Source: Pigoraptor vietnamica
Taxonomy: Eukaryota > Opisthokonta > Filasterea
Length of the DNA: 50,631 nucleotides
Assembly: GCA_943704525.1 (NCBI GenBank)
Contig: CALSCQ010000505.1
Coordinates: forward strand, 1 to 50,631
Direction: 5' to 3'
Numbering within the stretch: the first letter of the stretch is position 1; every line of letters begins with the position of its first letter. A program made the translations under genes and the position numbers. The notes under the pieces were generated by a model, which ran no database searches, was not told the DNA's origin, and worked only from the letters and a program-made list of their open reading frames with translations. This document shows, one piece after another, positions 3,564-33,216 of the stretch.

Positions 3564-4213
3564 TGGGCGCGGCGCAGATAACCCGACAACTGTCGCGGCG
3601 AACCAGCCTGTCACGAAGCGACGCTGCGTTGCGCACAAGACGGCAACAACCAGCGCACACGCACAGACGCATGCGCATGTGTGAGTCGATGGCCCAGTGC
3701 CCGGTGCTTGCACGCTTGACGATCTGACGAGCCCAAGTGGCGAGAAGCACCTGCGTCAGCGTGCGACATGTTTCCCGGCTTTGCGCGGTTTCATTAAACA
3801 ATGGACGAATATCATCCGGGGTGGAAAATGCACTGGACTGTAAATATTTCAGTGTATCTTCAATGAAGTTTAATACTATACTTGACGCTCTTCATCCGGG
3901 GTACCAATATTTATTCACGTGATATCACGTGCCGTTGCCATGGACACTACTCTCAGCAGCCTTCACACCAAGAGAAAACGAGATGAGCGCACGCCTCCCC
4001 TAGTTCAAGTGCCTGTTCGTACTAACAGGTCGTGGCGCTGTTTTTGAACGTGAACGTGTGTGGCGTACGAACAGGTGGCGCTGTACTCGTGCCCCGTGTG
4101 CGGCTTGGTCGTTGTTTTGAACTTGCGCGTGTGCGGGGGGGACTGCGGGCTGTTGGTGCCCGCTCGCAACACTGTCGCGCGGCGGTCGCGGGGCGCGCGC
4201 CCCTTCGTCGGAG
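3564..4213. promoter_or_regulatory. Head-to-head intergenic region with a CACGTG palindrome
   Basis: This 650-bp gap separates the divergent transporter and PF20 starts. An AT-rich core at about 3810-3940 holds the perfect 16-bp palindrome CACGTGATATCACGTG at 3916-3931 (two E-box cores) and two copies of TCATCCGGGGT about 79 bp apart (near 3811 and 3891). Closer to PF20, CTGTTCGTAC at 4011-4020 and GTACGAACAG at 4067-4076 form a perfect 10-bp inverted repeat, each next to a GTGGCGCTGT word. It is probably a shared bidirectional promoter; no protein coding seen. Confidence 0.5.
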
Positions 4214-6581
4214 ATGGCGGCGGCGGCGCGGAACCCCACCGGCGCGGGGGCCTTGGACGACATGGACGGGTATTACCTTGAGCAGGTGTCGATCCCCGGC
4301 GACTCGGACGACGAATTCAGCTACGCGGAGGTGGCCGTGGAAGACTCGCTGCTCTCCGATTCGAGCGAGGGCGAGGAGGACCTCGACAGCATGGTGCGCA
4401 CGCTGAACGAGCGCACGGCGCAGGCGGACGCGGGGAAGGACAAGGAGAAGGCGAAGGAGGCGGCTGCGAAGGAAGAAGCGGCGCCGCAAGCGACCATCGC
4501 ACGGCGACCAGAGACCGTCGAGGACTTTGTGCGCAATTACCTCGCGCGGATGGGCCTTGAGCGGACGCTGGACGCCTTCCAGTGCGAGTGGTACGAGCTC
4601 GCGCAGCAGGGGCGGTTGCCGGCGGGTCACGTGGCGGACAGCCCGGCGGACGTGTACGCCCACAACCAGCAGCTGACGGAGACGGTGAAGCAGTTGCAGG
4701 GGGAGTCGCAGCGCGCGCACGACGTCGCCGCAAAGGCCGCGCAAAAGTGCGAGAAGATGCGCAAGGAGCGCGACTTCCACCGCATGCACCACATGCGCGT
4801 CGTCCAGGAGAAGACGCGCGTCGCAGCCGACATCAAGCGTCTCGAGCGGCAGCTGGCATCGGTCGAGCCGACCCTCCGCACACTCCGCCAAAAGTACGAG
4901 GCCGCCATGCGCGAGAAGATGCTTGCGAAGCTCGATCGCGACCGCCTCAACGGGCGGCTTGCCGGGCTGGAGGCTGCGCTGCGACAGGCGGGCATTCCTG
5001 TGGAGGGTCTCACGGACACGGACTTTCGCGCGGCGTCCTCCGCACTCGCGACGGTGCCCGCGAAGGTCGAGCGCGGGGTCTCTTCGGCGTCGAGCGCGGC
5101 TGTGGTCGCACCCGCCGCCAGCACGAGCACGGCGCTGGTGCCCGCCGCTGCCCCGGATGAGCCGCGAGGCGCACCGAAGGACGCGCGTGACACGCAGTTC
5201 CCGTCGGACGACCGACCCACGCGCTCACGTGACGAGTCGCAGGCGCCGATGCACGCGTGGGAGTTTATCCTGTCGAACACGATCCACGCGCACGCGTCTG
5301 CCGTGACGTCGCTCGCGGTGCATCCGAAGCGGCCGGTGGTGGCGACGGGCGGCAACGACAAGACGTGGAAGCTGTGGTCGATTCCCTCGGGCGAGCAGAT
5401 CACCGCCGTCGAAGGTTCGTGGGCGTGTGCGTGCGTGTTCTCGACACGGGCGAAGGGGCCTCTGTTCTGTGTGTGTTGCAAGGAAACCGCACTATGAGGC
5501 GGGGTTTTGCAGGTCGTCGCAAGGCTCTTGCTCTTCGAACGCCCACTCACGTGACTTTGCCGCACCATTCGCACAGGACACCGCGAGTGGGTATCGCACC
5601 TCGAGTTCAGCCCGAACGGCAACCACCTTGCGACGGCGAGCGGCGACTGCACGGCCAAGGTGTGGGACGTGACGCGCGGCACGTGCCTGGCGACCCTCGC
5701 GGACCACAAGCTGCCCGTGTGGGCGTGCGCGTTCCACGACCAGGGTGAATTCCTCGCGACAGCGTCGATGGATCAGACGGTGCTTATCTGGGATCTCATG
5801 AGGTGGGAACGGCAATGGCTCGCTTTTTGTGTCAGCACTCTGCTGCATACGCACGTGACCTGGAACTGTCCCTTTGTTAATGTGTGCCAGTGTTGCATGT
5901 ATACCGCCTCTCTTCATCACTCAAACTCAGTCTCACGTCCGCTTCTCTTCGCCCCCCACAGCCAGCGGTGCCGCAGCATTCTCCGCGACCACGGCGACTC
6001 GGTTGCGACCGTCGCCTTCCGCCCGTTCTCGAACGTGCTTGCTTCCGGCTCTGGAGACCGTACCATCAAGATATGGGACCCGCGCTCGTCGCAGCCCATC
6101 GCGACCCTCCTCGGCCACGAGGCGGGCGTCAACAGCGTCGTCTTTGACTCGAAGGTGCGCATCGATCGCGCAGCCGTTGCTGCAGTGTTTAGAACGTGTC
6201 ACCTTTCAAACATTCATTGCTTGTGTATTGTTGTTGGGAGTGTTGCGCTTCTCTGACCGCGCATTTGTCGTGCAGGGTGAGAACCTCTTCTCGGCCGACG
6301 CCGGCGGTGTCGTCAAGGTGTGGGACGCGCGCACATTCCTCGAGCACGCCTCGACAGACTTTGGTCCGCACACGGCCAACCGCGTCGCCGTGGACCCCAG
6401 CGGAAGCGTCGTTGCGGTGGCCGTCAACAACGGCGGCATTTCGCTGTGGGAGACGCCCGACAAGTACTACTCGCTGCAGGCGCACGAGGGGCCCACACAG
6501 GCCGTCGCGTTTGCGCGAAATGCCGCGGGCGACTTTTTGGTGTCCGGTGGCGCGGACGGCACTGTGCGGCTGTGGTCGTAG
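4214..6581 (+). CDS. SPAG16: PF20/SPAG16, ciliary central-apparatus WD40 protein
   Basis: Four exons, 4214-5414, 5577-5802, 5962-6154 and 6276-6581, give 641 residues, close to the size of animal SPAG16. The N-terminus is acidic, followed by a LisH-like stretch (VRNYLARMGLERTLDAFQCE) and a long basic coiled coil (EKMRKERDFHRMHHMRVVQE), which is diagnostic for the PF20 family. The C-terminal half carries about seven WD repeats ending in DKTWKLWS, DCTAKVWD, DQTVLIWD, DRTIKIWD, VVKVWD, GISLWE and DGTVRLWS. PF20 bridges the two central-pair microtubules of motile 9+2 cilia, so the cell should swim or beat a flagellum. The start is the first ATG of the frame in GGAGATGGCG. Donors are GTTCGT, GTGGGA and GTGCGC. 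Confidence 0.93.
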
Positions 6582-7010: not shown

Positions 7011-10000
7011 TCACACAAACGACTCTTGGACGTTCTCCGATTCCCGCTCGAGCGATATCGCGCCGCCAATCGTCTCAAGCAGCAGCTGCTGCTGTCTCGT
7101 CGCAAACGAGTCCTCGGGACGACCCGGCACAGAGTCCCGCGTGCCCGCGAGGTACGACGGCGAGCGCGCCGACCGCGCCGCCGCGACCGCCGCCCTTCGC
7201 CGCACGCGCCGCGCAGCCGCCTCCTCGAGGTCAATCTCCTCATCCGTCTCTTCGTCGTTGTCCGAACAGCTCAGCCCGTTCTCCGAGGGCGCGGACGTCA
7301 CGGTGATCGCGACGTCTGCGACATCCGTGGGCCTTGCGCGCTGCGCACCCGACGGCGAACCACCGGCCTCCACGGCGGCGGACACCTCGGGCATCGACGA
7401 AAACGGCGCCGAGAGCGACCCCTGCATTGGCTGCTGCTGCGTTTGCTTCTGCTGCGCCTTCTTCCCCCACATGGCAAAGTTTTCAGAGCGGGAGTTGTTG
7501 AGGGACAGCGAGCCGGACCGCGACCCGCGCGTGCCGCGGGGACTGCGCTCGGCCGCAGGGTCCTCCGCTAGCGACGGAAGGGACGTCCCCCCAATCGAGG
7601 CACGCGACCGCCGCTTTGAGTGCGACGACGTCAGCGACTTGTTCGAGCCGAGCGATCCCGACGACGACGCCGGCGACATGGACTTTGCCGGCGCGGCGAC
7701 CGTTGCCGTGGGCTCGGGACCGCCCGCGGGGGGTTCGCTTTCGCTGCCGGTCGCGACGGCCGCGATGAGTGCGGCGGGCGGCGTGGCGGTGCTGGTGCGC
7801 GGCGACTTGTTGTAGTGCTCGTCGTGCTGCTTCTGCAGCTCCTCCAGAGACACCGGCCGGTTGGCGTCCGGGGTGTTGTGGGCGGCAATGACGTCAGAGA
7901 GGCGCTTGCGGGCCTCGTGGTCCGGGATGAGCCGCTCGACAAACAGTGACATGCGGCGCTTGCGCTTGCCGACGAGAAAGTACGTCGTCATGTCCCCCTT
8001 GCCCTTGACGTAAACGGTGCCGCGCCGCTCAAACTCATACACGTCCTTAAGAATCTCATACGTCCACTCGGTCACCTGCAGGAAGAGTGGGGGAAATGCC
8101 GTCAACGGGACGCCACAAGCGCAAAAAGTTGACGAGATGGCACAAGGAACATCACACACGCAGTACACGTGCGACACACGCCGTACACGCGCGATAGACG
8201 CAGTACACGCGCGACACACGCAGACACGCTACATCTTTTCCATCAAATGCCGCACCTGTATCCGGCCAGGGACGCCGCTCGACTCCATTCGTGACGCCAC
8301 GTTGACGGCATCGCCCCAAATGTCGAACGCAATCTTCTTGCGCCCAATCACGCCCGCGACGACCGTCCCGACGTTCATCCCTACGCGCAGCGTAAAGTAG
8401 TTGCTCTTGTCCACCGAAAACTCAAAGCAGTCGCGGTTGAGGCGGTCGAGCACGCGCTGCATCTCCAGCACAAAGTCCGCGAGCGCGTACACGTGCGGAT
8501 AGAGCCCCTCGCGCGGGCCTGACCCCGACGCACGCAGCCCCGCGGCGGCCATGTACGTCGCACCGATCGTCTTGATCTTCTCGACGGCGTGGTACTTGAC
8601 CTTGTCGCACATCTCGTCAAACTCCGAGATAAACTCGTTCAGCAGGCGCATGGCCTCCACGCTGAGGTCGATCGTCTCGACGCCGTCCAGGCCGCGGTCG
8701 CGGTCCGCAAACAGCTCGGAGAAGTTCGAAATGTTGCAAAACACAATCGCGACGTCGTCGCACTTCTCGGCGATCGTGCGGCGCGGGTCCTCCATTAGCC
8801 GCTGGCCAATGTCGACGGGCAGAAGGTTCTGGAGGAGATACTCGGTACGCCGCTTTACGCTTGCCGCGTGCCACACCTCGACCTTGAGCGCGTGCTTCAT
8901 GAGAAAGTGGACGCGCACGCTAAACTCCATCTGCCAGTTGTTGGCGACGACGGCGACCGTGACGAGGCCCATCTCGATGAACACCTCGGGGAACGCGTGC
9001 TTGTAGGTGTCCCGGTAGTCAATGTGCGCGACGAGCAGCCACACGAGCATCACGATCATGCACAGCGCCGAGCGATAGGCGCTGCTCAGCCGGAAGAAAT
9101 TCGTGAAGCACAGCATCGCCACGATCGCGCACTCGGCCGCGTACAGCGGGGCGTGCGAGACGCACGTCGTGTAGAACCCGTACTGGTTCACGCACCACTC
9201 CATGCACGCGTTGTCGGCGCAGTCCGAGACGGCCAGCAGGGCATCCAGCGCGACGAGCACGAGCGTAAAGCATCCAAGCGCCTGGATCGTCTTCGCGTGG
9301 ATGATCGTGTTCGCGACCCGCACGATCAGCGGCGGAACCGTCTCCCCTCCGGTGCCAACGTCCTCCGAACCGCAGGGACCGCGCGCGTAAAACTTTGGGA
9401 AGGCCTTCGCGGTGGCAAGCACGAGGATCGTGAGGAGCGCCGAAAAGATGACGAGGAATCGCGCGAGCATGGCGGACGTCCGCGGTAGCGCAATCACTTG
9501 GATGATGGAGATGTAGAGAAAGACGACCGTGCTCATCGTCACACCCGTCACGAAAACGCGCATGCCGCGGGTCTTCGCGATGTAGCGCGTCTGAAGGGGA
9601 TAGGGATAAGGGCCGTCAGCTGCCGTCCCAAGCATGTGCGCACGTAGCCATCAAAGTTCTCTGAATTCCAACAGAGGCAGAAACAGTCGCACACACACAA
9701 CACACACACACTCTCTTCTTTACACGCGCGCACACCAACCCACCTGGTACTCCTGTTCCAGCTGCGCGTCGTTGAAGAAGAGAAGGTAAGGGTTCACCTT
9801 CGACTTGAGGCGCGTCACAATCTCATCCTGCTTTCGCGAAATCTCCGCAAGCACCATCCGGTCCTCCTCGAGCTCCCCGTCCATGCTCGCAAGCACCTCA
9901 GAATCCGCGCGCGGCCGCCCCACGCGCATCATCGCACTCGCCATCTCGGGAATCCCCGCCGACTCCGCCCGGTCACGTGGCGACCCCGGCGGCACTTCGA

Positions 10001-12464
10001 GGAACCCCCCGTTCACGTGAAAGCCGTCCCCCTTCAGCGGCGCGGTCGCCGGCAGCGCACCCGCAGAGGCCGTCGAGCCCCTCGCATCGATCGTGATCGT
10101 GATCGTCTCGACGGGTCCGCTGGGCCGCGGCACGGACACACTGTCCGCCTGCGCCGCCCCCTCGCCCTGAGGCGGCTGCCCCTGCGACTGCCCCTGCCCC
10201 TGCGACTGGCCCTGTGACTGCAACTCCGACGCGAGGTGCTCTAGCACTGCCGCGGGCGTCTTTTTCGGATCCTGCGTGGCGTCGATGGTCGCCAGCACCT
10301 CGCCCCTTCGCGACAGAATGATCGATCCCCGGTTTCTCCTCCGTGCGCTGCGTGCCTCCGCCGCCGCCGACGACATGTCCACCCCGGATGGCATCCGCGA
10401 CATCTCCATCGTGGCGCCCTCCCGCTCCGAGACCCCGCCCAGCGACTGACCGCCGACGCTCCCGGAGAAGCTCACCGCGAGGGCATCCACAGGCGCGCTT
10501 GCGCTGAGATCGATGACGCTCTCCTTTCTTGTCGCGAGTTCGGGCGCCGCGGCTTCACTTGCAACCGGCGCATCCGCCTTCACAGACTCGCGGCGACTCG
10601 GCGGCGACGTCGGTGAGAGGCAGCGCGTGGCCGCGGGCGAGCCCGGCTCCGACGACACGTCGACGAGCTCGTCGTTCACGCCCTTCACATAGTACGCCAG
10701 CATGTTCGCGAGCACTGGATGGTTCTCCATTGGCTGCTCGACCTCCAGTTCGTAGCCCAGCGTGAAGCACTGACGCGTGGCCTCGGATATCTTCACGCGA
10801 CCGGGCGTCCCCGTCGACTCCATGAGTGACGCGATAGTGACGTCCTTGGACCACACGTCGTAGTGGAACTTCTTGATACCAATCACGCCGGCGAGGACGG
10901 ACCCCGTGTGCACGCCCACGCGCATCGATATCGGCACGTGCTTCCTCGCCGCAAAGCGATTGAGCGTCTGCACCATCTCCATCCCCATTTGCACGACGCG
11001 GTCGGCGTGGTCTTCGACAGCCTCCGGCACGCCGCACACGAGGAAATAGCAGTCGCCGAGCGTCTTGATCTTCTCGACCCCGTTGACGTCGGCGAGGTCA
11101 TCGAACTTTCCAAACAGCGCGCTGAGCAAGTTGACGAGCTTTTCGGCGGTCATCGTCGACGACAGCACCGTGAAGCCGACGACGTCCGCGAAGAGAATCG
11201 ACACGTTGTCCTGCCGAAGCACCTCCGTCTCGCGCAGCGACGTGTACTGCCGCTGGTGTATCTTCATCTCCTTCGTTAACCGCTCGGCCATGGACCGCGG
11301 CAAGCACGACTGGAGCATCCGGGAGGGCAGTCCGGACTCCTCCTTCACCTTGTTCTGCACGCGCGCAAACTCGCGCGCCTGGAGAAACGTCCTCCTCGCG
11401 CTCAGGTCGCCCGCGACCGCGTAGTACAGGCCGAGCGAGTTGACGCAGAGGAACGCAATCATGTTGCACACGACCTGCATCGCGAGGTGGTCCGTGTGCG
11501 TGTTCGCGACCGACGCGGCCACGGCCTGGTGCGCGATCGACGACGCGAACCCAAGCGCCGCCGTAATGATGAAGGGGAGCGGCGCGAGCGAGTACATGAC
11601 AATCTGCGCGGCGAGTAACAGCCCGATCTTCGCCTGTGGCGACGCTTCAGGTGCATCCGCGCCGATAATAATGAGCTGCGCGTAGGTGACGACCTCGCAT
11701 AGCACAGAGATGATCATCCAGTGCCGGTGGTAAAACTGCTTGCGCGTCGTGCACACGAGCAGCATGAGGTAGATGACGAGCGATGCGACGCCCACGCCCA
11801 AGTAGACGAGGCGGGACCCCCGAAATTCGTCGCCGGCGATGGCATTGTAGAGTGCCCACGCGAGCGACGTGACAAAGATGAAGACGAGGAGCATGCGAAA
11901 CCACCGCCCCTTCTCGCGGAGATAGAACTGCCGGTAGAGCACCTCCGTCTCCTTCGAGCTGAATTGCGGGTAGAGCTTGTTGGCGTAACGGCTTTGCGAC
12001 TCGATACTCTCCGCTGCGGTTGGGGCAACCAGGCAATCGCATGAGATTGCCATCATTTCCGGAATGCCATTCAATCAGACACGCAGGCGCGCACATACAC
12101 GCATGCCGTGCAGTGTAAGTAGAGAAAGGAGATGGGAGCACGGGATAGCAGGGACATACGCTGCAATACGGCGCACAAACAAACACACCCAACGCGATAT
12201 ATTCACAACGCGAAAAATACACACCCGATGCGATATGTACACACCCAACACGAAACAGCCAGGCCACACAACAAACTCTGATGCGCACACCCCACCTATT
12301 GTCTTCTCGATGTTCTTCATGAAGAGATCGTCCTCCGTCCCGTCCTGCGACTGCGCGCGCATGTACTCTGTTTCCATGTTCGCCCCCGTCGATGGGTCCG
12401 TGAACATCGTCGACGCGCGCGGCCGCGGATCCCCCAAGGGATCGCTCGTTTTACGCGACGACAT
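7011..12464 (-). CDS. 12-transmembrane adenylyl cyclase (animal tmAC topology)
   Basis: Four exons, 12464-12296, 12013-9744, 9590-8256 and 8075-7011, encode 1612 residues. Order: short Ser-rich N-tail, six TM segments (about 90-270), catalytic C1 (about 320-500), a long Ser/Gln-rich C1b linker with a QSQGQ repeat, six more TM segments (about 820-1010), C2 (about 1090-1290) and a disordered 300-residue tail ending ESFV. C1 keeps both metal-binding Asp residues (SILFADVVGF; KTLGDCYF). C2 lacks the first (FCNISNF) but keeps the ATP-purine Lys and Asp (EKIKTIGATY; FDIWGD) and the Asn/Arg of VNVASRMES. This division of labour is that of metazoan membrane adenylyl cyclases, so cAMP production from ATP is predicted. 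The start is the first ATG before the exon; the GTG further upstream was not used. Confidence 0.92.
8160..8228. repeat. About 20-bp tandem repeat in adenylyl cyclase intron
   Basis: Three imperfect copies of a unit like CAGTACACGCGCGACACACG fill most of the intron between the two exons that encode C2. The repeat is private to this intron. Confidence 0.8.
12180..12262. repeat. Imperfect ACACCCAACGCGAT repeats in adenylyl cyclase intron 1
   Basis: Several diverged copies of ACACACCCAACGCGATAT-like words occur in the first cyclase intron, with spacing of about 24-30 bp. This is non-coding and looks like a decayed minisatellite. Confidence 0.6.
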
Positions 12465-13399: not shown

Positions 13400-14038
13400 T
13401 CACTTTGCACGACATGCCGGGGCGTATCGCGCGGAATACCCCTCGCACATCTTTCGAAGCTCTTCGCGCACGTGCGTGGGCAAGCGCTGGATCACCGCAT
13501 CGCGCTCGAAAAGCGCCGTAGATCCGTGCCCGCTCACATACGCGTTGAGCTTCGTCGTCGCTTCGTTCGCGAACATGCTCGCCTTTGACATGTTGAGGCG
13601 TTCGAGAAGGTCGCGGTTGCCCTGGAGCGAGTGCTTCTGGTGGTACTCCTCGGCGGGGTAAAAGTGCATCCCACTCGCGACCTCGGTATGCACCGTCTTG
13701 CCACTCGACGCCTCGAGCGCGCGCAGGAACTCTTTCGCCTCTTCCTTCTGCTCGGCGTCTTGTGGCCACACGGCGGACATGTACTGGCGACCCCACTTGG
13801 GCGCGAACGGGTTGTGCTGCTCCGCGAACTGCTGGAGGAGCTCCTGAAAAGTGATGACTTCGTCGTCGTAGACAATCTCCACGGACTCGGCATGATCCCC
13901 TATGCTGTGGTACGTGGGATGCGGCTTTGCGCCCCCGCAGTAGCCGACTTGCGTCGTGATGACCCCCGGAAGCGACCCAAACTGCGCCTCCGGGAACCAA
14001 AATCACCCGAGCGCGAACACGGCGCGGCGACGTCCCAT
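13400..14038 (-). CDS. msrA: Peptide-methionine (S)-S-oxide reductase, read as a selenoprotein
   Basis: A single exon of 213 codons from the ATG at 14038 to the TGA at 13402-13400 contains one in-frame TGA at 14005-14003 (codon 12). That codon sits exactly where MsrA has its catalytic Cys: RRAVFALG-[UGA]-FWFPEAQF, the GCFW motif with U for C. The reading frame on both sides is MsrA: GVITTQVGYCGG, PHPTYHSIGDHAE, PFAPKWGRQYMSA, MHFYPAEEYHQKHSLQ. MsrA repairs methionine-S-sulfoxide in proteins and uses thiol or selenol chemistry. Sec-containing MsrA is known from Chlamydomonas and a few other eukaryotes and bacteria. The downstream SECIS-like hairpin and intact flanking frame argue for recoding rather than decay. 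Two Cys near the C-terminus (MCEGY, PACRAK) could be resolving residues. It is divergent from the coiled-coil gene. Confidence 0.88.
14003..14005 (-). promoter_or_regulatory. Candidate selenocysteine codon (UGA) in msrA
   Basis: The TGA falls at codon 12 of the msrA frame, at the position of the catalytic Cys in the G-C-F-W motif, followed at once by FWFPEA. Translation as Sec requires the SECIS candidate at 13292-13380. Confidence 0.85.
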
Positions 14039-23125: not shown

Positions 23126-26100
23126 ATGCCGCAAAACGCGGACGACACCTCTCCACACCCTGCGTCGGCCACAGCGGCGGCAGAGATGATTGCGGAGCGT
23201 CGGCGGCCTCACGTCGCGCCGCTGTCGGGTGCGGAAGTGGCTGTGCGCCGGCTGTCGAAGCTTGGTTTCGCAGTTTCCGTCATGGCCATGTCGTTGATGA
23301 TAATCTGCATCGCTCTCCCCGCCGATTCATTGCCGTGGTTTGCGAGCCCATCTCTCGACAATTCTTTGGGCGGTTTGCGTTCTTTTCAATTGCGAGCGAA
23401 TCTCGGCGAAATATGCGGCTTTCGTCGGATAACACTCGCGCGGGAGTGTGTGGCATACAAAGATGGGGACAAAGTGCTCACGGACGACCCCGCCTATCCC
23501 TCAATTGCGGGAATTGCATGGACTTGGAGACTTATCGGATCGCTTTCGTTCACGCTGGCCGTCGCGGCAACGACCTGTGCGGCCGCGTGCAGTGTTTGTG
23601 CTGCCGTGTGGGCTTTCAGGATTGTCTTCTCGCGCCCGGCGTTGCAGAGGCATGCGCAGAGAACAGCGGCGAAGTACGATCGGTTCTTCCTCGTTGTTGG
23701 CATCGCAATCGCAGCGGGTGTGTTTTCCGGTGAGTGCTGCCGTACTGCCGTACATTTGGTATGTCCCCTGACCGGCGTTTTTATAGTGAAGTGTGCACAG
23801 TCACGCCGGCCGGTCAGTCGGATGGCACCTCGCAGTCGTGAGGTTGTGTGAGGAGGCAAATTCGATTGTCATTGTGCCGCGGCTGAGTCGTGATGCATGT
23901 ACTTGTATGCGAGTCAATATGTGCCCCAGCGGGAATAGAAATGCATGCGGCAACCGCCGGCGGCATGACCGACAATGCGCGCTCATGTACAGTGGTAGCA
24001 CTCCGGCGGCTGCATTGGGGTTTGGCGTCAGCGGTCAGGTTGCTCAAGGCGCGCAGGAGACGTTCAGTGTGTGGTAACGCACCGCTATCAAGGTCGTACT
24101 CATGTGCCCTGTATTCTGCGCAGCGTACTTGATGATAGGGACATACTTCTCGATCGTCTACGTTGTTGGGGCCGTGCGCATTAATTACGTGATACAAGGG
24201 ACTACCTGCTTCGTCCTGAACGCGGTCGCTATCGTCCTCGTATTGGTCGCCGCCGCCATATTGCTTCGCGCCCGTGACGTCGCAAAGGCAATTGAGCATG
24301 CTGCCGGCCGCCCCCCCACGGCCGACCCCGTGCAAGAACGACAGGCTAGTACTCTAGGCTACGTTTGTTGTACTGCGAGTGCTTCTAGATCTGAGTCTGT
24401 CGGATTAGATCTTAGCTGATGGCAGTCGTCCGAAAGTGACTGGTGGCGCCTCGCATGTTACAATATTTCACCTTGTTTACATATTTTTGTCGCACACAGG
24501 TCACCTCACGTGTGGGACGACGATATCTTCTTCGTCGTGGCCGGGGGAACGGAAATGCGGCGCCTTAGCATGTCCGACCTGGACGGCTCTCGGCGTCTCG
24601 ACGGCGACGCGCATCACCAGCACGACGGCCATCACAATGTCGACGAACACGGGCGGGGTCGCGAGGAGACAGCCGGCAGAGCACGCGTATATGCCGTCGA
24701 GGACCTACCCATGCAGCGAATCGGGCCCGCCAACGAACCTCACGCTCTCAACTGTAATTACGTTGTCGCCATTCCCGCCGCTACGGTGGAGGCACCGGCG
24801 CCTGCGCCGCGAGTCAATGCACCCGAGGCCGGTGTTCCGAAACGCGCCTCACGCACAGACATCGAGGCGCCCTGGGACGACATACCGATCGGCCTACTGA
24901 CGCGCATACGTCGAGAGCAGCTGGAGCTGAGCGGTGAGCTCGGTGAGGGACAGTTTGGCGCCGTCGTCGAGGGACTGTACAGGGAAGACTCGCGCAGCAC
25001 GGGTGAGGCGGTCGCTGTGAAGATGATCGCGGCGGGCGCCGACTTCGACCGAACGGAGTTTCGGGACGAGTGCATCCTGCACGGCTCGCTGCGACATCCC
25101 GCGATTGTACGCGCGATTGGCATATGCGAGACGCGGAACGAGTTTCTGTTTGTGCTGGAACTGATGCCCTTCGGATCGCTCAAGAGCTACCTCGAGAGGA
25201 ATTACGGGCGGCTGCCCTTCGAACAGCTGCTGGGCTATTGCGCGCAGGTTGGTGTCACGCAGCCCTTCTGTTAGTCTGCCTGCACTTTGTCGAGTGCATC
25301 ACCGACGCAGATGGCACCCCAAACTTGCAAACTTTCTTACTATTATCGGCCCACCAGTCGTTATTAGTGCCGTTTTTGCCGCTGGCGGTACTCAGTACAA
25401 GGCTTTCTCTTATCAATGCCGGCCGCCGCCGACCTTGACTGTAGTTATGAACACAGTAATGAGTCACCATCACCGGCTTCTCTTCGCAGATTGCGAGCGC
25501 AATGGCGTACTTGCAAGAGCGACGGCTGGTCCACCGGTGTGTTTCCTGTCGACAGACGTCTGTCACTGACATGGATCTAATGTCACTGTAATAGCTCCGC
25601 TGGTGCGCCCGGACAATGGGTGTACGGCCGGCGGCACTTTTTATTTCTTACTCTGTTCTCTGACAACACGGCCTGTGCCCACGGCAGAGATCTCGCGACC
25701 CGAAATGTGCTTGTCGAGACGGAAACCCACGTGAAGGTAGGGTGCCATGGCGTCTCTTGCTTCGCTTGTACAATAGATCTCAGCCCGGCAATTCGCAATA
25801 TTTGTCAACATTTGGCCGACTGCCGCCGGCCCGCAACCGTTACGGTATCGTGCAATGTTATCACATTCAGTCCAATAGCACTTCGAATGGCATACTGATT
25901 TGCAGTCTTCCAAACGCAGCTGACGGACTTTGGCCTTGCGCGTCCCTTGAGTGGCGTCGAGCGCGTGTACGAGAGCACGCGAAGCCGCCGCATGCCCCTG
26001 AGATGGATGTCGCCGGAAGCCATCCGCTACAATCGGTTCGACGTGAAAACGGACGTGTGGAGCTTTGGTGAGAGGCATGGGTCCGAACCAAACCGTGCGA

Positions 26101-26474
26101 ACTGTCCTCTGCTGCCACCGTCGGCAAGAATCGCTTTGTCGTTTATTTGCATCTCAATTATTCAGCCGCCGGCGATTGATCGGTGTGTTGCCGACTGTCC
26201 AGTGAGCCACGATCTAATCCATAATCCATCTGCGCTGGCGCAGGCGTACTCGTGGGAGATCTTCTCGTTCGGCGCAATGCCGTGGAAAAACCACTCTGCA
26301 GAGGACATGGTGCGGCGCGTCGAGGCGGGCGAGCGACTACCGCGCCCGTCCGCGTGTCCACCGGTCGTATACGACGTGGTTTTGGTCATGTGTTGGCTGG
26401 CCAATCCCGTCCTCCGGCCGGACTTTTTGCAGCTGTGCGACATGCTCGACCAGTGTCACGATGATGTGGGATAA
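23126..26474 (+). CDS. Claudin-like four-TM protein fused to a tyrosine kinase
   Basis: Seven exons: 23126-23729, 24124-24394, 24500-25247, 25490-25536, 25688-25736, 25920-26067 and 26203-26474 (712 residues; exon 2 donor and exon 7 acceptor are less certain). The N-terminal 255 residues hold four membrane spans. The first outer loop has W, then LGEIC-x10-C, matching the W...C-x(8-10)-C signature of the claudin/SUR7 superfamily. After a cytoplasmic linker, the kinase has GELGEGQFGAVVEG, VAVKMI, HRDLATRNVL split over two exons, LTDFGLARP, an activation-loop Tyr (RVYEST), MPLRWMSPEAI, SWEIFSFGAMPW and CW-x6-RP. HRDLATRN and PLRWMSPE identify a true tyrosine kinase. It would sit in the plasma membrane and could couple a junction-like or stress-sensing tetraspan module to phosphotyrosine output (inference). 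Confidence 0.82.
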
Positions 26475-29335: not shown

Positions 29336-29997
29336 TCAGTGCATCTGCGCCGTGCCTCTTTATACCCATCGCAAGCACACCGTGAGCATGCCTGGCGAAA
29401 ATAAATGGCACGACAGGGGTTTTTTCGCCGGAAGCCCATACTCGGCTCGCACAGTAACGCACACTACACTGACGACAATAGCCGTGTACAGACTTTATGA
29501 ACGGCATGAAACCGTTCGTTGGTCCATAGAGAAAAAAAATCCCACATAGCAACGCACACATTTCCGACAGCACAACAGCGACTGGAAAATAATACGTCAG
29601 TCTGAGGTTTCTCTCGGACATGACGAACAAACTCAGCCGGGTGCGGAACGGACATGACGAACCGGCAAACTCCACGGGGGGCTAAGATAGCCCCCATGGC
29701 AAACACAGCTGGACGGTACCTTGTTTCCGTTGTTGTTCCGCGAGACATTTCCACGGCAACGCACACTGCAGCAGCAGCACGAACAAGCAGGCGTCATTCT
29801 GAGGTAGTTCGTCTTAGCACAACGACAGAGCGCCGTTTAACGCACAACGTGACAGGGGTTTTTTCGCCGCACACCAGAGTAACAATTTCCGTTACAACAC
29901 ACGTGCGAACCACGTGACCGTCGACAGGGGGCGTTGTCATTTTTGGCTACTTCTCGCGGTCCTCCTTTTGGAGCCCTTTCCTCTCTATGCGCCGAAA
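29131..29997. promoter_or_regulatory. Divergent region upstream of the class C GPCR
   Basis: Besides the tandem repeat it carries two identical 19-bp words, GACAGGGGTTTTTTCGCCG, at 29412-29430 and 29851-29869, two GACATGACGAAC words near 29618 and 29650, and a CACGTG at 29911-29916, about 80 bp before the GPCR ATG. No coding seen. Confidence 0.5.
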
Positions 29998-32900
29998 ATG
30001 CGCCCGTTCAGCGCCGCGGTCGCGGTCCTCGCGCTCTTATGCGCGTTGCCGCTGGCCACGTCGGCTGCTGCCGGGCCCGTCACGTGGGTTGTGGCGCAGC
30101 TGGCGGCAGATTCCGTGCTCGATTTGGGTCCCGGCATGCCGTCCTTCACGGGCGTTTTCGGCACAGGTTTCTATGGTAAGGCACTGGCCGGCGCGTACGT
30201 CCCTTCGCTCGACGCGGTGCTCTTTGTGAGTGCGGCGCAGTGCGTCGATATGCCGCCGTTCGTCCCGCAGTCATTCAACGGGACGCACGACGTCCACCGC
30301 CTTTTCAAGGTGCAACCGAGCGATGCCGACGGCGGTGCGGCGTCCGGTTCGTGGCAGTCGACAGAGGAAGAGGGCGCGTTTGTTGCGTCTTGGCCGTTGG
30401 ACGCGCCCCCGCCGTGCTGCTTGAAGCCCGAGGTCGTCCATGGGGGTGATGCCATGCCCGACCTCTTCTTCCTCACAGCGCTGTGCTTTGCGGACGGAAG
30501 CGCGTCGGGGGGTCAGGCGCCCGTGCCGACATTTCTGGTGCTGAACCTGACGTCGCACGCGTGGTCGCGTGTCGTTGTGCCCGAATTCGCCGACATGCCG
30601 CCGTCCGGAGGAGGGAGGAGAGCGCCGTCACCATCGTTCGGCCTCCCATTCTTCCGCCACGCAATGGCCGCTGTCGACACCGCCGTGTACATGTACGGCG
30701 GCGTGGTGCCCGGGTCGTTCTACGAGAGCCCATCGCACTTTGTCGTCTACGCGCAAGCATCGATGGTCGTGTACGACGTCGCTCATAACACGTGGACCCG
30801 GCGGGCGTTTGAATGCGACGCCACTGTGGGCACCCTGACGCCCCGGTGGCGCCAGCCGTTCGCGCCGTTTGGACAGCCATTGGCGACGTCGACGGACCCC
30901 AACGATGCGTGCAAGACCGTGTACGACGACGGGCTGCAGGAGAATCTGAGGCCCGCGTACTGGGTCGATTCGAACGGCACCGCCTACGACGTGGTGACGG
31001 TCACTTCGCTCCCGTGCGTCGTGGCACCGCCGCTGTACGGCCACTCGATGGTCTACGACCCCTCGCGCCGTGCGCTGCTCGTCTTTGGCGGGCTCAAGGA
31101 CGGCGAGGGAATCGATGGGCTGCGATACAACCGGCTCGCGTACGCGTATGCCGTCGACACGGACGCCTGGCTATTCGCGATCGACGCCGGTGAAGTGTCG
31201 GGATACGGTTTCGGGGCCGTCGCAGTCACTGATAACAGAATTTCGTACTTGCCCGGTTGGCGACCCCTTAGTCGTGCGTCCGCTGCCACCCCGGAGGTGG
31301 GGACGTACTCGCAGGCACTGCTGACGGCGCCTCTCTCGGAGTTTCCCACTCTTGCGCGATGGGACGTCCAGTCCATTTTTGGGATGTCCGGACCAACACC
31401 TCTCACCCCGCGCATGGATGCCGTGTTGGCAGGCACGTGCGACGGGGACCTACTGGCCGTTGGGGGCGCGCGTGTTGCGGAGGGCGAGATGCACGATGAG
31501 GTAGTGCTCATGTACGCGTCCGAAGGGACGGCGAAACGGACGGTCGTCTCGGCGAACGTCACGTCAGTGGCTGCCGGACAGACAGTCGCCGTGCGGGCGC
31601 GTGTGAGGGACGCCACCGGACGCGCGCTCCATCACGGTCGCACCGTCGTGGCCGGATTCGCAACGCACAACGGCACGGGCCGCACGGGGCCGCTGACGTT
31701 CGCGCACGCGGGCGCCGGCGTTTTCGAGGCGCATCTGTACGTGACTACAGCGGGCAGGTATGAAGTGACGGTGCTGGTGAACGGCAACGTCGTGCCCGGC
31801 GAGCCGCTGTCGGTGACTGTCTCGGCGGGTGCGCCAGTGCCGGGACGGTGCGCGGCCATCGGCGTGCGTGCTTCGTTCGGACAGGCGGCGCCCGCGGCGA
31901 ATCGGTTCCGAGTGGCGTGTCTCGACGCCTTCAACAACGCGGTGGAATTGCGCGAGGACCACGGCGTGACGTTTGCGCTGGACCCGTTGGCGGGGCTGGA
32001 CCCTTCGTCGCCGCTCGCCGTGTCGTCGGCGGTCGTGATTCAGACGGGCGTTCGCGGCGGCGGTTTGGTGGAGTACGTGGCATCGCCCGGCGTGTACCGC
32101 GCGCGACTGTCTGTCGGCGGCGCACCCGCGCTGCCGGTGCCGTTGGACGTGAGCGTCGAGCCGCAGGCCTGGCAGCTGGGCGGGGACAACGAGTATGCGG
32201 CCACGCGCACCGTTTCGCTCGGACTGTCGCGGGTCGTGTTTGGAGGGCTCGTGGCCGTGTGCGCGTTTGTGGCAGCGCTGGCCGTTGCGTGCGGCGCGTG
32301 CGCGGCGCGATACCACCAGGTGAGGGTCTTCAAGCGCGCCATGCCGACGTTTTTGGGCGTCATGTGCGCGGGGATTGCGTTGTACATGATGGGGATTGTC
32401 GGCGAGCTCGTGTCCACGGAGGCCTCGTGCGTGGCATCCGTATGGCTGGAGCACGTGGGGTTCTCGATGTACTTTGCGGCACTCGCCCTCAAGACGTACC
32501 GGCTGGAACGCATATTCCGCAACGAGAAGCTTCGGCAACTGAGGCTGTCGAATGGCAAGCTCGCGACACTGCTCGGGATTTCCGTGGGGGTGATTGCCAT
32601 TTACCTCGCCGCGTGGATGGTCGCCGACATGCCGGGTCTCGCAGCGAGCGCGCGCGCACAGACGGTGCGAGGCTCGAACGGAACGCTCACGTACACGACG
32701 GTCGAGACGGTGACGATGTGTCGCTGGGGCGTGTGGCAGTTTGCGCTGCTCGCGGTCGAGTACGTTTCGTTGATACTTCTGAGCGCGTTTTGCCTGCGCG
32801 TGTTGGACGTCGACACGGACTTTAACGAGTCGCGGTTCATCGCCTTCACGGTGTGGAATTTCGTCGTGCTCGGCGGATTGCTCGTTCTTATTATCAATTT

Positions 32901-33216
32901 TTGGACCGACAGCGTCTACACGCCCGACTTTTATTACGGCCTACGAGCCGCAGGGACGTGCATACCGTCGTTCATGGCGCTCGTTCTCATGTTCGCGCCG
33001 AAAGTGGTGCGTGTGTACAACGGGACGGGCAATCTGTCGGCAGCCACGTCGTCGATACGACCGAGGCCCATTATGGGCGGCGAGTCTGTCTCGTCGCTGG
33101 CGGCCAACTCCGGGCGCGTGTCCGTATCATTGTCCCTGCGCGAAATGCGCGAAGTGGGCGCTGCTTTTGGATCCGGGCGTGGAGAGGGTTACGCCGTCGC
33201 TGATTCCGACCTGTAA
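29998..33216 (+). CDS. Intronless Kelch/filamin-like/7TM class C GPCR (GABA-B type)
   Basis: One uninterrupted exon of 1072 codons starting at ATG 29998; the frame opens earlier but only with a GTG. Signal peptide MRPFSAAVAVLALLCALPLA. Residues 50-510 form a Kelch-type beta propeller (GHSMVYDPSRRALLVFGGLK). Residues 515-615 resemble a filamin/ABP280 Ig repeat (HAGAGVFEAHLYVTTAGRYE), followed by a second Ig-like segment. Seven membrane helices occupy about 745-1010; SVWLEHVGFSMYFAALALKT and YRLERIF resemble GABA-B receptor TM3 and its cytoplasmic end. The tail is short, Ser-rich and ends DSDL. Class C receptors usually have a Venus-flytrap ectodomain; here a propeller replaces it, so ligand and mode of activation are unknown. 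Likely G-protein coupled at the plasma membrane. An intronless gene among intron-rich neighbours may be a retrocopy. Confidence 0.88.
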   Translation: MRPFSAAVAVLALLCALPLATSAAAGPVTWVVAQLAADSVLDLGPGMPSFTGVFGTGFYGKALAGAYVPSLDAVLFVSAAQCVDMPPFVPQSFNGTHDVHRLFKVQPSDADGGAASGSWQSTEEEGAFVASWPLDAPPPCCLKPEVVHGGDAMPDLFFLTALCFADGSASGGQAPVPTFLVLNLTSHAWSRVVVPEFADMPPSGGGRRAPSPSFGLPFFRHAMAAVDTAVYMYGGVVPGSFYESPSHFVVYAQASMVVYDVAHNTWTRRAFECDATVGTLTPRWRQPFAPFGQPLATSTDPNDACKTVYDDGLQENLRPAYWVDSNGTAYDVVTVTSLPCVVAPPLYGHSMVYDPSRRALLVFGGLKDGEGIDGLRYNRLAYAYAVDTDAWLFAIDAGEVSGYGFGAVAVTDNRISYLPGWRPLSRASAATPEVGTYSQALLTAPLSEFPTLARWDVQSIFGMSGPTPLTPRMDAVLAGTCDGDLLAVGGARVAEGEMHDEVVLMYASEGTAKRTVVSANVTSVAAGQTVAVRARVRDATGRALHHGRTVVAGFATHNGTGRTGPLTFAHAGAGVFEAHLYVTTAGRYEVTVLVNGNVVPGEPLSVTVSAGAPVPGRCAAIGVRASFGQAAPAANRFRVACLDAFNNAVELREDHGVTFALDPLAGLDPSSPLAVSSAVVIQTGVRGGGLVEYVASPGVYRARLSVGGAPALPVPLDVSVEPQAWQLGGDNEYAATRTVSLGLSRVVFGGLVAVCAFVAALAVACGACAARYHQVRVFKRAMPTFLGVMCAGIALYMMGIVGELVSTEASCVASVWLEHVGFSMYFAALALKTYRLERIFRNEKLRQLRLSNGKLATLLGISVGVIAIYLAAWMVADMPGLAASARAQTVRGSNGTLTYTTVETVTMCRWGVWQFALLAVEYVSLILLSAFCLRVLDVDTDFNESRFIAFTVWNFVVLGGLLVLIINFWTDSVYTPDFYYGLRAAGTCIPSFMALVLMFAPKVVRVYNGTGNLSAATSSIRPRPIMGGESVSSLAANSGRVSVSLSLREMREVGAAFGSGRGEGYAVADSDL

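Follow-up and report, generated by a model that had tools for sequence, protein, structure and literature searches.

A candidate gene of Pigoraptor vietnamica that may join a four-pass membrane module to a tyrosine kinase

In a stretch of 50,631 nucleotides from the filasterean Pigoraptor vietnamica (hereafter the window; contig C200 of the 32.5 Mb assembly of 1395 contigs that our genome searches covered), a block of four predicted transmembrane (TM) helices lies upstream of a tyrosine kinase on the same strand. We read the two as one gene, in which the four-TM module is spliced to the kinase. We give this reading a probability of about 0.57 and find it somewhat better than the reading as two neighbouring genes. 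Judged from the DNA, the gene would make, or would recently have made, a protein of ~680-700 residues in which a flexible linker of ~130 residues connects a four-pass module to a tyrosine kinase at the C terminus.

Results

Gene model

The sequence is compatible with the exon coordinates proposed by the first-pass annotation: an ATG is present at 23126 and all boundaries fit GT-AG, with introns at 23730-24123, 24395-24499, 25248-25489, 25537-25687, 25737-25919 and 26068-26243. Exons 1 and 2 form one frame that runs through TM3, and the exon 1 donor, GTGAGT at 23730, has the top rank among 47 donors of the same genome. The parts of the gene are collected in Table 1.

Table 1. Parts of the candidate gene, in window coordinates
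Feature	Position	Strand	Basis or remark
Exon 1: N-terminal tail, TM1, first outer loop of ~70 residues (W71, C97-x10-C108), TM2, basic inner loop, first half of TM3	23126..23729	+	Open frame from ATG 23126, donor, TM scan and null
Exon 2: remainder of TM3, short second outer loop, TM4, start of inner C-terminal linker	24124..24394	+	Ends either at 24331, if the GC donor is used, or at 24394 with the GT donor
Putative intron 2, acceptor ...TATTTTTGTCGCACACAG before 24500	24332..24499	+	Length of 168 nt from the GC donor at 24332 or 105 nt from the GT donor at 24395
Exon 3: linker of ~130 residues, then kinase N-lobe (glycine loop, VAVK, RDE)	24500..25247	+	Codon score, kinase match
Exon 4: IASAMAYLQERRLVH	25490..25536	+	
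Exon 5: end of HRDLATRN, then VLVETETHVK	25688..25736	+	
Exon 6: DFG, activation segment, PLRWMSPE, DVWSF	25920..26067	+	
Exon 7: C-terminal part of the kinase and TAA stop	26244..26474	+	Out of frame with exon 6 if spliced at the conserved position

The junction between the membrane module and the kinase

One gene or two is decided at the join of exon 2 with exon 3. The first-pass annotation had connected them by frame and phase, and both hold; its donor at 24395 is poor, however, and the codon statistics agree better with a GC donor at 24332. Three donors are in frame with the acceptor at 24500, namely GC 24332 (GCAAGA), GT 24395 (GTCTGT) and GC 24296. We do not prefer the last of these, nor a GT donor at 24363, which is better but needs an acceptor at 24426. 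As a reference for donor strength we took 54 kinase introns from 20 loci, not all of them certain picks, and retained those in which the best join led the runner-up by at least 3 bits; 47 passed and seven were dropped. Only 2/47 of these score no better than GTCTGT, and a C at +3 is found in 0/47; for the GC donor at 24332, judged on positions +3 to +6, 4/47 score no better, and GC donors make up 2/47. The weakness of both donors speaks for two genes. It does not exclude the use of the join, because intron 5 of the same gene, which is fixed by homology, has an equally weak donor (2/47 no better). At 105 or 168 nt, the length of intron 2 would be ordinary (median of the 47 introns, 139).

Read as two neighbouring genes, the region would hold an orphan four-TM protein and, behind it, a small soluble tyrosine kinase. 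The unspliced frame of the former ends at the TGA at 24417-24419; the latter would begin at ATG 24555, where the kinase frame has its earliest in-frame ATG, or at an ATG just downstream. We regard this reading as doubtful, although it deserves a serious hearing: the in-frame stop follows exon 2 closely, and P0007, the nearest relative found for the kinase, has no TM segment. It would, on the other hand, squeeze the end of one gene and the start of the next into the 135 nt between the stop and that ATG, an interval with no in-frame ATG. Codon usage also runs against it on both sides of the putative intron. Upstream, the GC content of third codon positions falls from 0.72 over 24126-24331 to 0.20 (4/20) over 24333-24392 (binomial P 2e-6 against 0.72 and 3e-4 against 0.60), and the last ~28 codons of the four-TM frame, from 24333, look non-coding, as an intron there would cause. 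Downstream, under a codon model trained on 23 open frames from kinase loci (12,509 codons), the score of exon 3 becomes weakly positive from ~24504, just past the acceptor and upstream of the first ATG. This early signal is modest, which leaves some room for two genes: the stretch 24504-24554 scores 4.6 bits over 17 codons, and among 44,726 non-coding stretches free of stops 3.4% score as high. Neither polyadenylation-like hexamers nor pyrimidine tracts were informative as markers of a gene boundary. From the sequence, a splice joining exon 2 with exon 3 appears plausible, and we retain the single gene as our preferred reading.

The kinase domain, its kinship and its frame

The kinase matches PF07714 (PK_Tyr_Ser-Thr) over profile positions 2-257 of 258 (E 2.2e-80), in a query read across a frame break between exons 6 and 7 with the residues G-V supplied by hand. 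HRDLATRN, which straddles exons 4 and 5, and PLRWMSPE, within exon 6, are both present as announced and lie ahead of the frame break. The domain had also been called complete, which is right for its content but not for its frame, which breaks in exon 7 under splicing at the conserved position.

Among PDB sequences, the best 60 of 2666 matches are of the EGFR/ErbB, Src-Abl ancestor, TYK2/JAK and FAK/PYK2 types. A homologue search scored the 8000 candidates sharing most words with the query, of which 5299 matched, and the 120 listed were checked for TM helices. The protein P0007 (EukProt Opistho-2@21126, 934 aa, from what we take to be the filasterean Pigoraptor chileana) stands seventh by E-value and first by identity among these 120, at 54% against 33-39% for the six rows ranked above it. 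Its identity to the window kinase is 49-54% depending on the alignment (49% over 318 aligned positions pairwise, 53% in the tree comparison), and the two form one clade with support 100/99 in a tree of 40 rows, several others of which are long-branched. Both have the kinase domain, a conserved LTxIRREQ entry to it and a C-terminal position of the kinase behind a long linker. They differ in that P0007 carries an SH2 domain (314-387) and has no TM segment. The N-terminal 404 residues of P0007 had no match in the P. vietnamica genome, in a query run without a positive control, and none of the 27 SH2 matches of the genome falls on the window's contig. Hydrophobic segments ahead of the first kinase domain are rare among the 120 listed homologues: 97 have none, 20 have one, and two, three and four segments occur in one protein each. 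The proteins with four (P0115) and three (P0117) carry EGFR-type domains and were not counted as multi-pass kinases.

Near its C-terminal end, the kinase carries an apparent frame fault in this assembly, which the first-pass annotation had missed. Joining exons 6 and 7 at the conserved position (26067/26244) yields WSFGVLV and then the wrong frame, where P0007 reads GFGVLVWEMF. The protein so obtained aligns with P0007 only to residue 870, whereas the other frame of exon 7 aligns with residues 866-930, and these alignment limits locate the fault near 26250-26256. Two joins keep the frame at the cost of residues inserted into a conserved segment: GT-AG 26067/26203 adds ~13, and GC-AG 26096/26244, the best by profile score, adds ~9. 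An assembly error, a real mutation and unusual splicing are all candidate causes, and the present activity of the kinase is uncertain, because in this assembly the conserved join does not give the kinase a single frame.

This fault could also mark a decaying pseudogene, a former fusion or kinase gene that lost its frame in exon 7. We find decay unlikely, although it is compatible with the other readings. In its favour are the frame shift that the conserved join causes inside the kinase domain, the weak donor of intron 2 and a DNA search of the assembly that found no second copy of the gene. Yet the other exons are open and VAVK, HRD, DFG and PLRWMSPE are intact; a single small fault resembles an assembly error equally well, and the in-frame joins would restore the reading frame for 9 to 13 inserted residues.

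The four-TM block

A 19-residue Kyte-Doolittle scan at a cut-off of 1.6 finds four hydrophobic helices, at residues 46-64, 143-161, 188-206 and 231-249, while at least three helices were found in 0/2000 random 290-codon translations with the trinucleotide statistics of the window. The four helices and the W...C-x10-C first outer loop of the first-pass annotation are thus present. Basic residues (K/R) outnumber acidic ones (D/E) by 6:1 in the inner loop, and the charges roughly balance elsewhere (N tail 6:5, outer loop 7:8, C tail 3:3). The simplest topology would place the N and C termini both inside, a prediction resting mainly on the basic inner loop; a C-terminal kinase would therefore be cytosolic. 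The first outer loop, the largest, has no Pfam domain.

Synonymous codon use is neutral in the four-TM exons, as it is in the linker, and these exons stay below the threshold of a coding-segment scan that called 24516-25268 coding. Protein-database searches returned no relatives of the four-TM part at E 1e-3 among 8000 scored candidates of ~164-523 aa, and none at E 10 among 8000 scored candidates of ~385-1220 aa. In the genome it found itself and one weak match (E 0.23, C814), with no clear paralogue. Matches in Pfam, NCBIfam and PDB were at chance level and were set aside (FA_desaturase, E 0.27 and 6.4; YehD, 0.23; MprF, 7.3; Rh(CE), 0.25). A chance open frame, lying ahead of a kinase gene whose first exon went unseen, is nevertheless a highly improbable reading of the block. 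Codon statistics that are neutral over 23126-23729, an overlapping open frame of 256 codons and the lack of relatives found would all suit such a frame, but it would have to supply four helices, more than any of the random translations, and one of these helices spans a splice that uses the best donor type of the genome.

The block had further been called claudin-like. Members of the claudin/PMP22 superfamily have four TM segments, inner termini, a W-GLW-C-C first outer loop and an R that starts TM2. The proposed comparison with Claudin_2, SUR7 and PMP22 profiles gave no profile match to the four-TM part: claudin, PMP22 and SUR7 Pfam models did not match the gene at E up to 1 or 10, the HMMER filters dropping most matches above 0.1, and the single Claudin_2 match of the whole genome (E 0.117, on C265) falls below the cut-off of that model. 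The label rests on the topology and a loose motif. W71, C97-x10-C108 and R135 lie in or beside the first outer loop; when this loop, with R135 included, is shuffled, 2.1% of the shuffles show a W and C-C pattern like it, and 0.9% show one with the R as well. The block resembles claudins, PMP22 and SUR7 in its four TM segments, its predicted inner termini and a short second outer loop, and more loosely in its W...C...C loop and the R at the start of TM2. It departs from them in having no profile match, in NLGEIC instead of GLW before the first Cys, and in the kinase alongside; we know of no kinase in the known members of this superfamily. A four-TM module with a claudin-like loop is the strongest label that the sequence would permit, and membership of the claudin superfamily can be spoken of at motif level at most.

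Other kinases of the genome and neighbours in the window

The genome holds 177 PF07714 matches. We surveyed 54 kinase loci for membrane segments, coarsely: many had only 1.5 kb of upstream sequence, several overlapped, helices split over exons were missed, and seven loci, five of them from the window, were left out. Within these limits, two hydrophobic segments were found in upstream frames of L018, L036, L039, L044 and L053 and three in a frame of L044, the others having none or one per frame. L044 was rejected as a three-TM kinase; a GT-rich repeat, translated as VCVC-type sequence, accounts for two of its apparent helices, and the remaining one is ordinary. Seven loci (L001-L007, on C77, C838, C1222, C354, C180, C117 and C716) form a tight tyrosine kinase group in which the kinase runs uninterrupted in one frame, and many other kinases of the genome bear introns. 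With receptor-like kinases such as L001-L008, the window gene shares a membrane segment and a downstream tyrosine kinase; theirs is one hydrophobic segment in a frame continuous with the kinase. The kinase of the window does not belong to the clade of L001-L007. Given this separation, the clade with P0007 and the SH2 and TM content of that protein, the window kinase is nearest, among the kinases compared, to an SH2 kinase that has no TM segment and not to the receptor-like radiation of its own genome, a kinship that the first-pass annotation did not bring out.

Elsewhere in the window there are genes for a WD40 protein (4172-5410, forward strand), a membrane adenylyl cyclase (7014-11987, reverse strand) that has an AC_N transmembrane region and a pair of Guanylate_cyc domains, of which the second is split in two, and a peptide methionine sulfoxide reductase (PMSR; 13421-13990, reverse strand). 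At 29953-33108 on the forward strand, a weak Attractin/Kelch-like propeller, a weak filamin-like repeat and a class C seven-TM (7TM) region share a run of coding segments that may amount to a single large class C GPCR. In our reading, the adenylyl cyclase and this receptor, together with the many kinase and SH2 matches of the genome, suit a unicellular holozoan.

Discussion

What we observe is a list of parts, and from it we infer how they could have come together and what they could do. If four-TM module and kinase do belong to one gene, the module may have replaced the N-terminal regulatory part of a kinase related to SH2 kinases, and would now tether the kinase to the membrane. Kinases could be gathered by clustering of the module or by contacts of its outer loop, whose two cysteines may form a disulphide, and kinases so gathered might phosphorylate one another in trans. 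The full version of this proposal, in which a unicellular relative of animals has a claudin-like four-pass receptor tyrosine kinase that functions, the N terminus of an SH2-type kinase was swapped for a contact module and signalling is switched on by clustering or cell contact, is tentative, and we would not expect all of it to be correct. Were the fusion true, a kinase related to an SH2 kinase would have gained a four-pass module while its lineage is still identifiable, and tyrosine phosphorylation would gain a testable link to a four-pass membrane protein outside animals.

The gene had been presented as unusual on the ground that known receptor tyrosine kinases are single-pass and that a four-TM one was undescribed. 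The second part stands as far as our searches of open-licence PMC papers go, in which we found no description of a four-pass tyrosine kinase. The first part is outdated, because multi-pass tyrosine kinases are already known: 7TM receptors that carry a tyrosine kinase at the C terminus (GPCR-TKs) are reported, 11 of them from choanoflagellates, together with sponge relatives, whereas other holozoans yielded none (PMC12716839). The same paper cites fusions of 7TM receptors with kinases in oomycetes and amoebozoans (GPCR-TKL/K; cited in PMC12716839).

Compared with a classical receptor tyrosine kinase, the window gene would have four TM segments if fused, and none if not, where the classical receptor has one, and it has no large extracellular ligand-binding domain. 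With the GPCR-TKL/K proteins, as cited there, it would share a multi-pass membrane module fused to a kinase, but their module is 7TM and their kinase is tyrosine kinase-like or of another kind. The GPCR-TKs come closer, combining as they do a multi-pass module with a true C-terminal tyrosine kinase; they have seven TM segments and the window gene four. If the fusion is real, its occurrence beside the published 7TM kinases would suggest that multi-pass modules were joined to true tyrosine kinases on more than one occasion among holozoans. If confirmed, the gene would take its place as a four-pass variant among the multi-pass tyrosine kinases already known.
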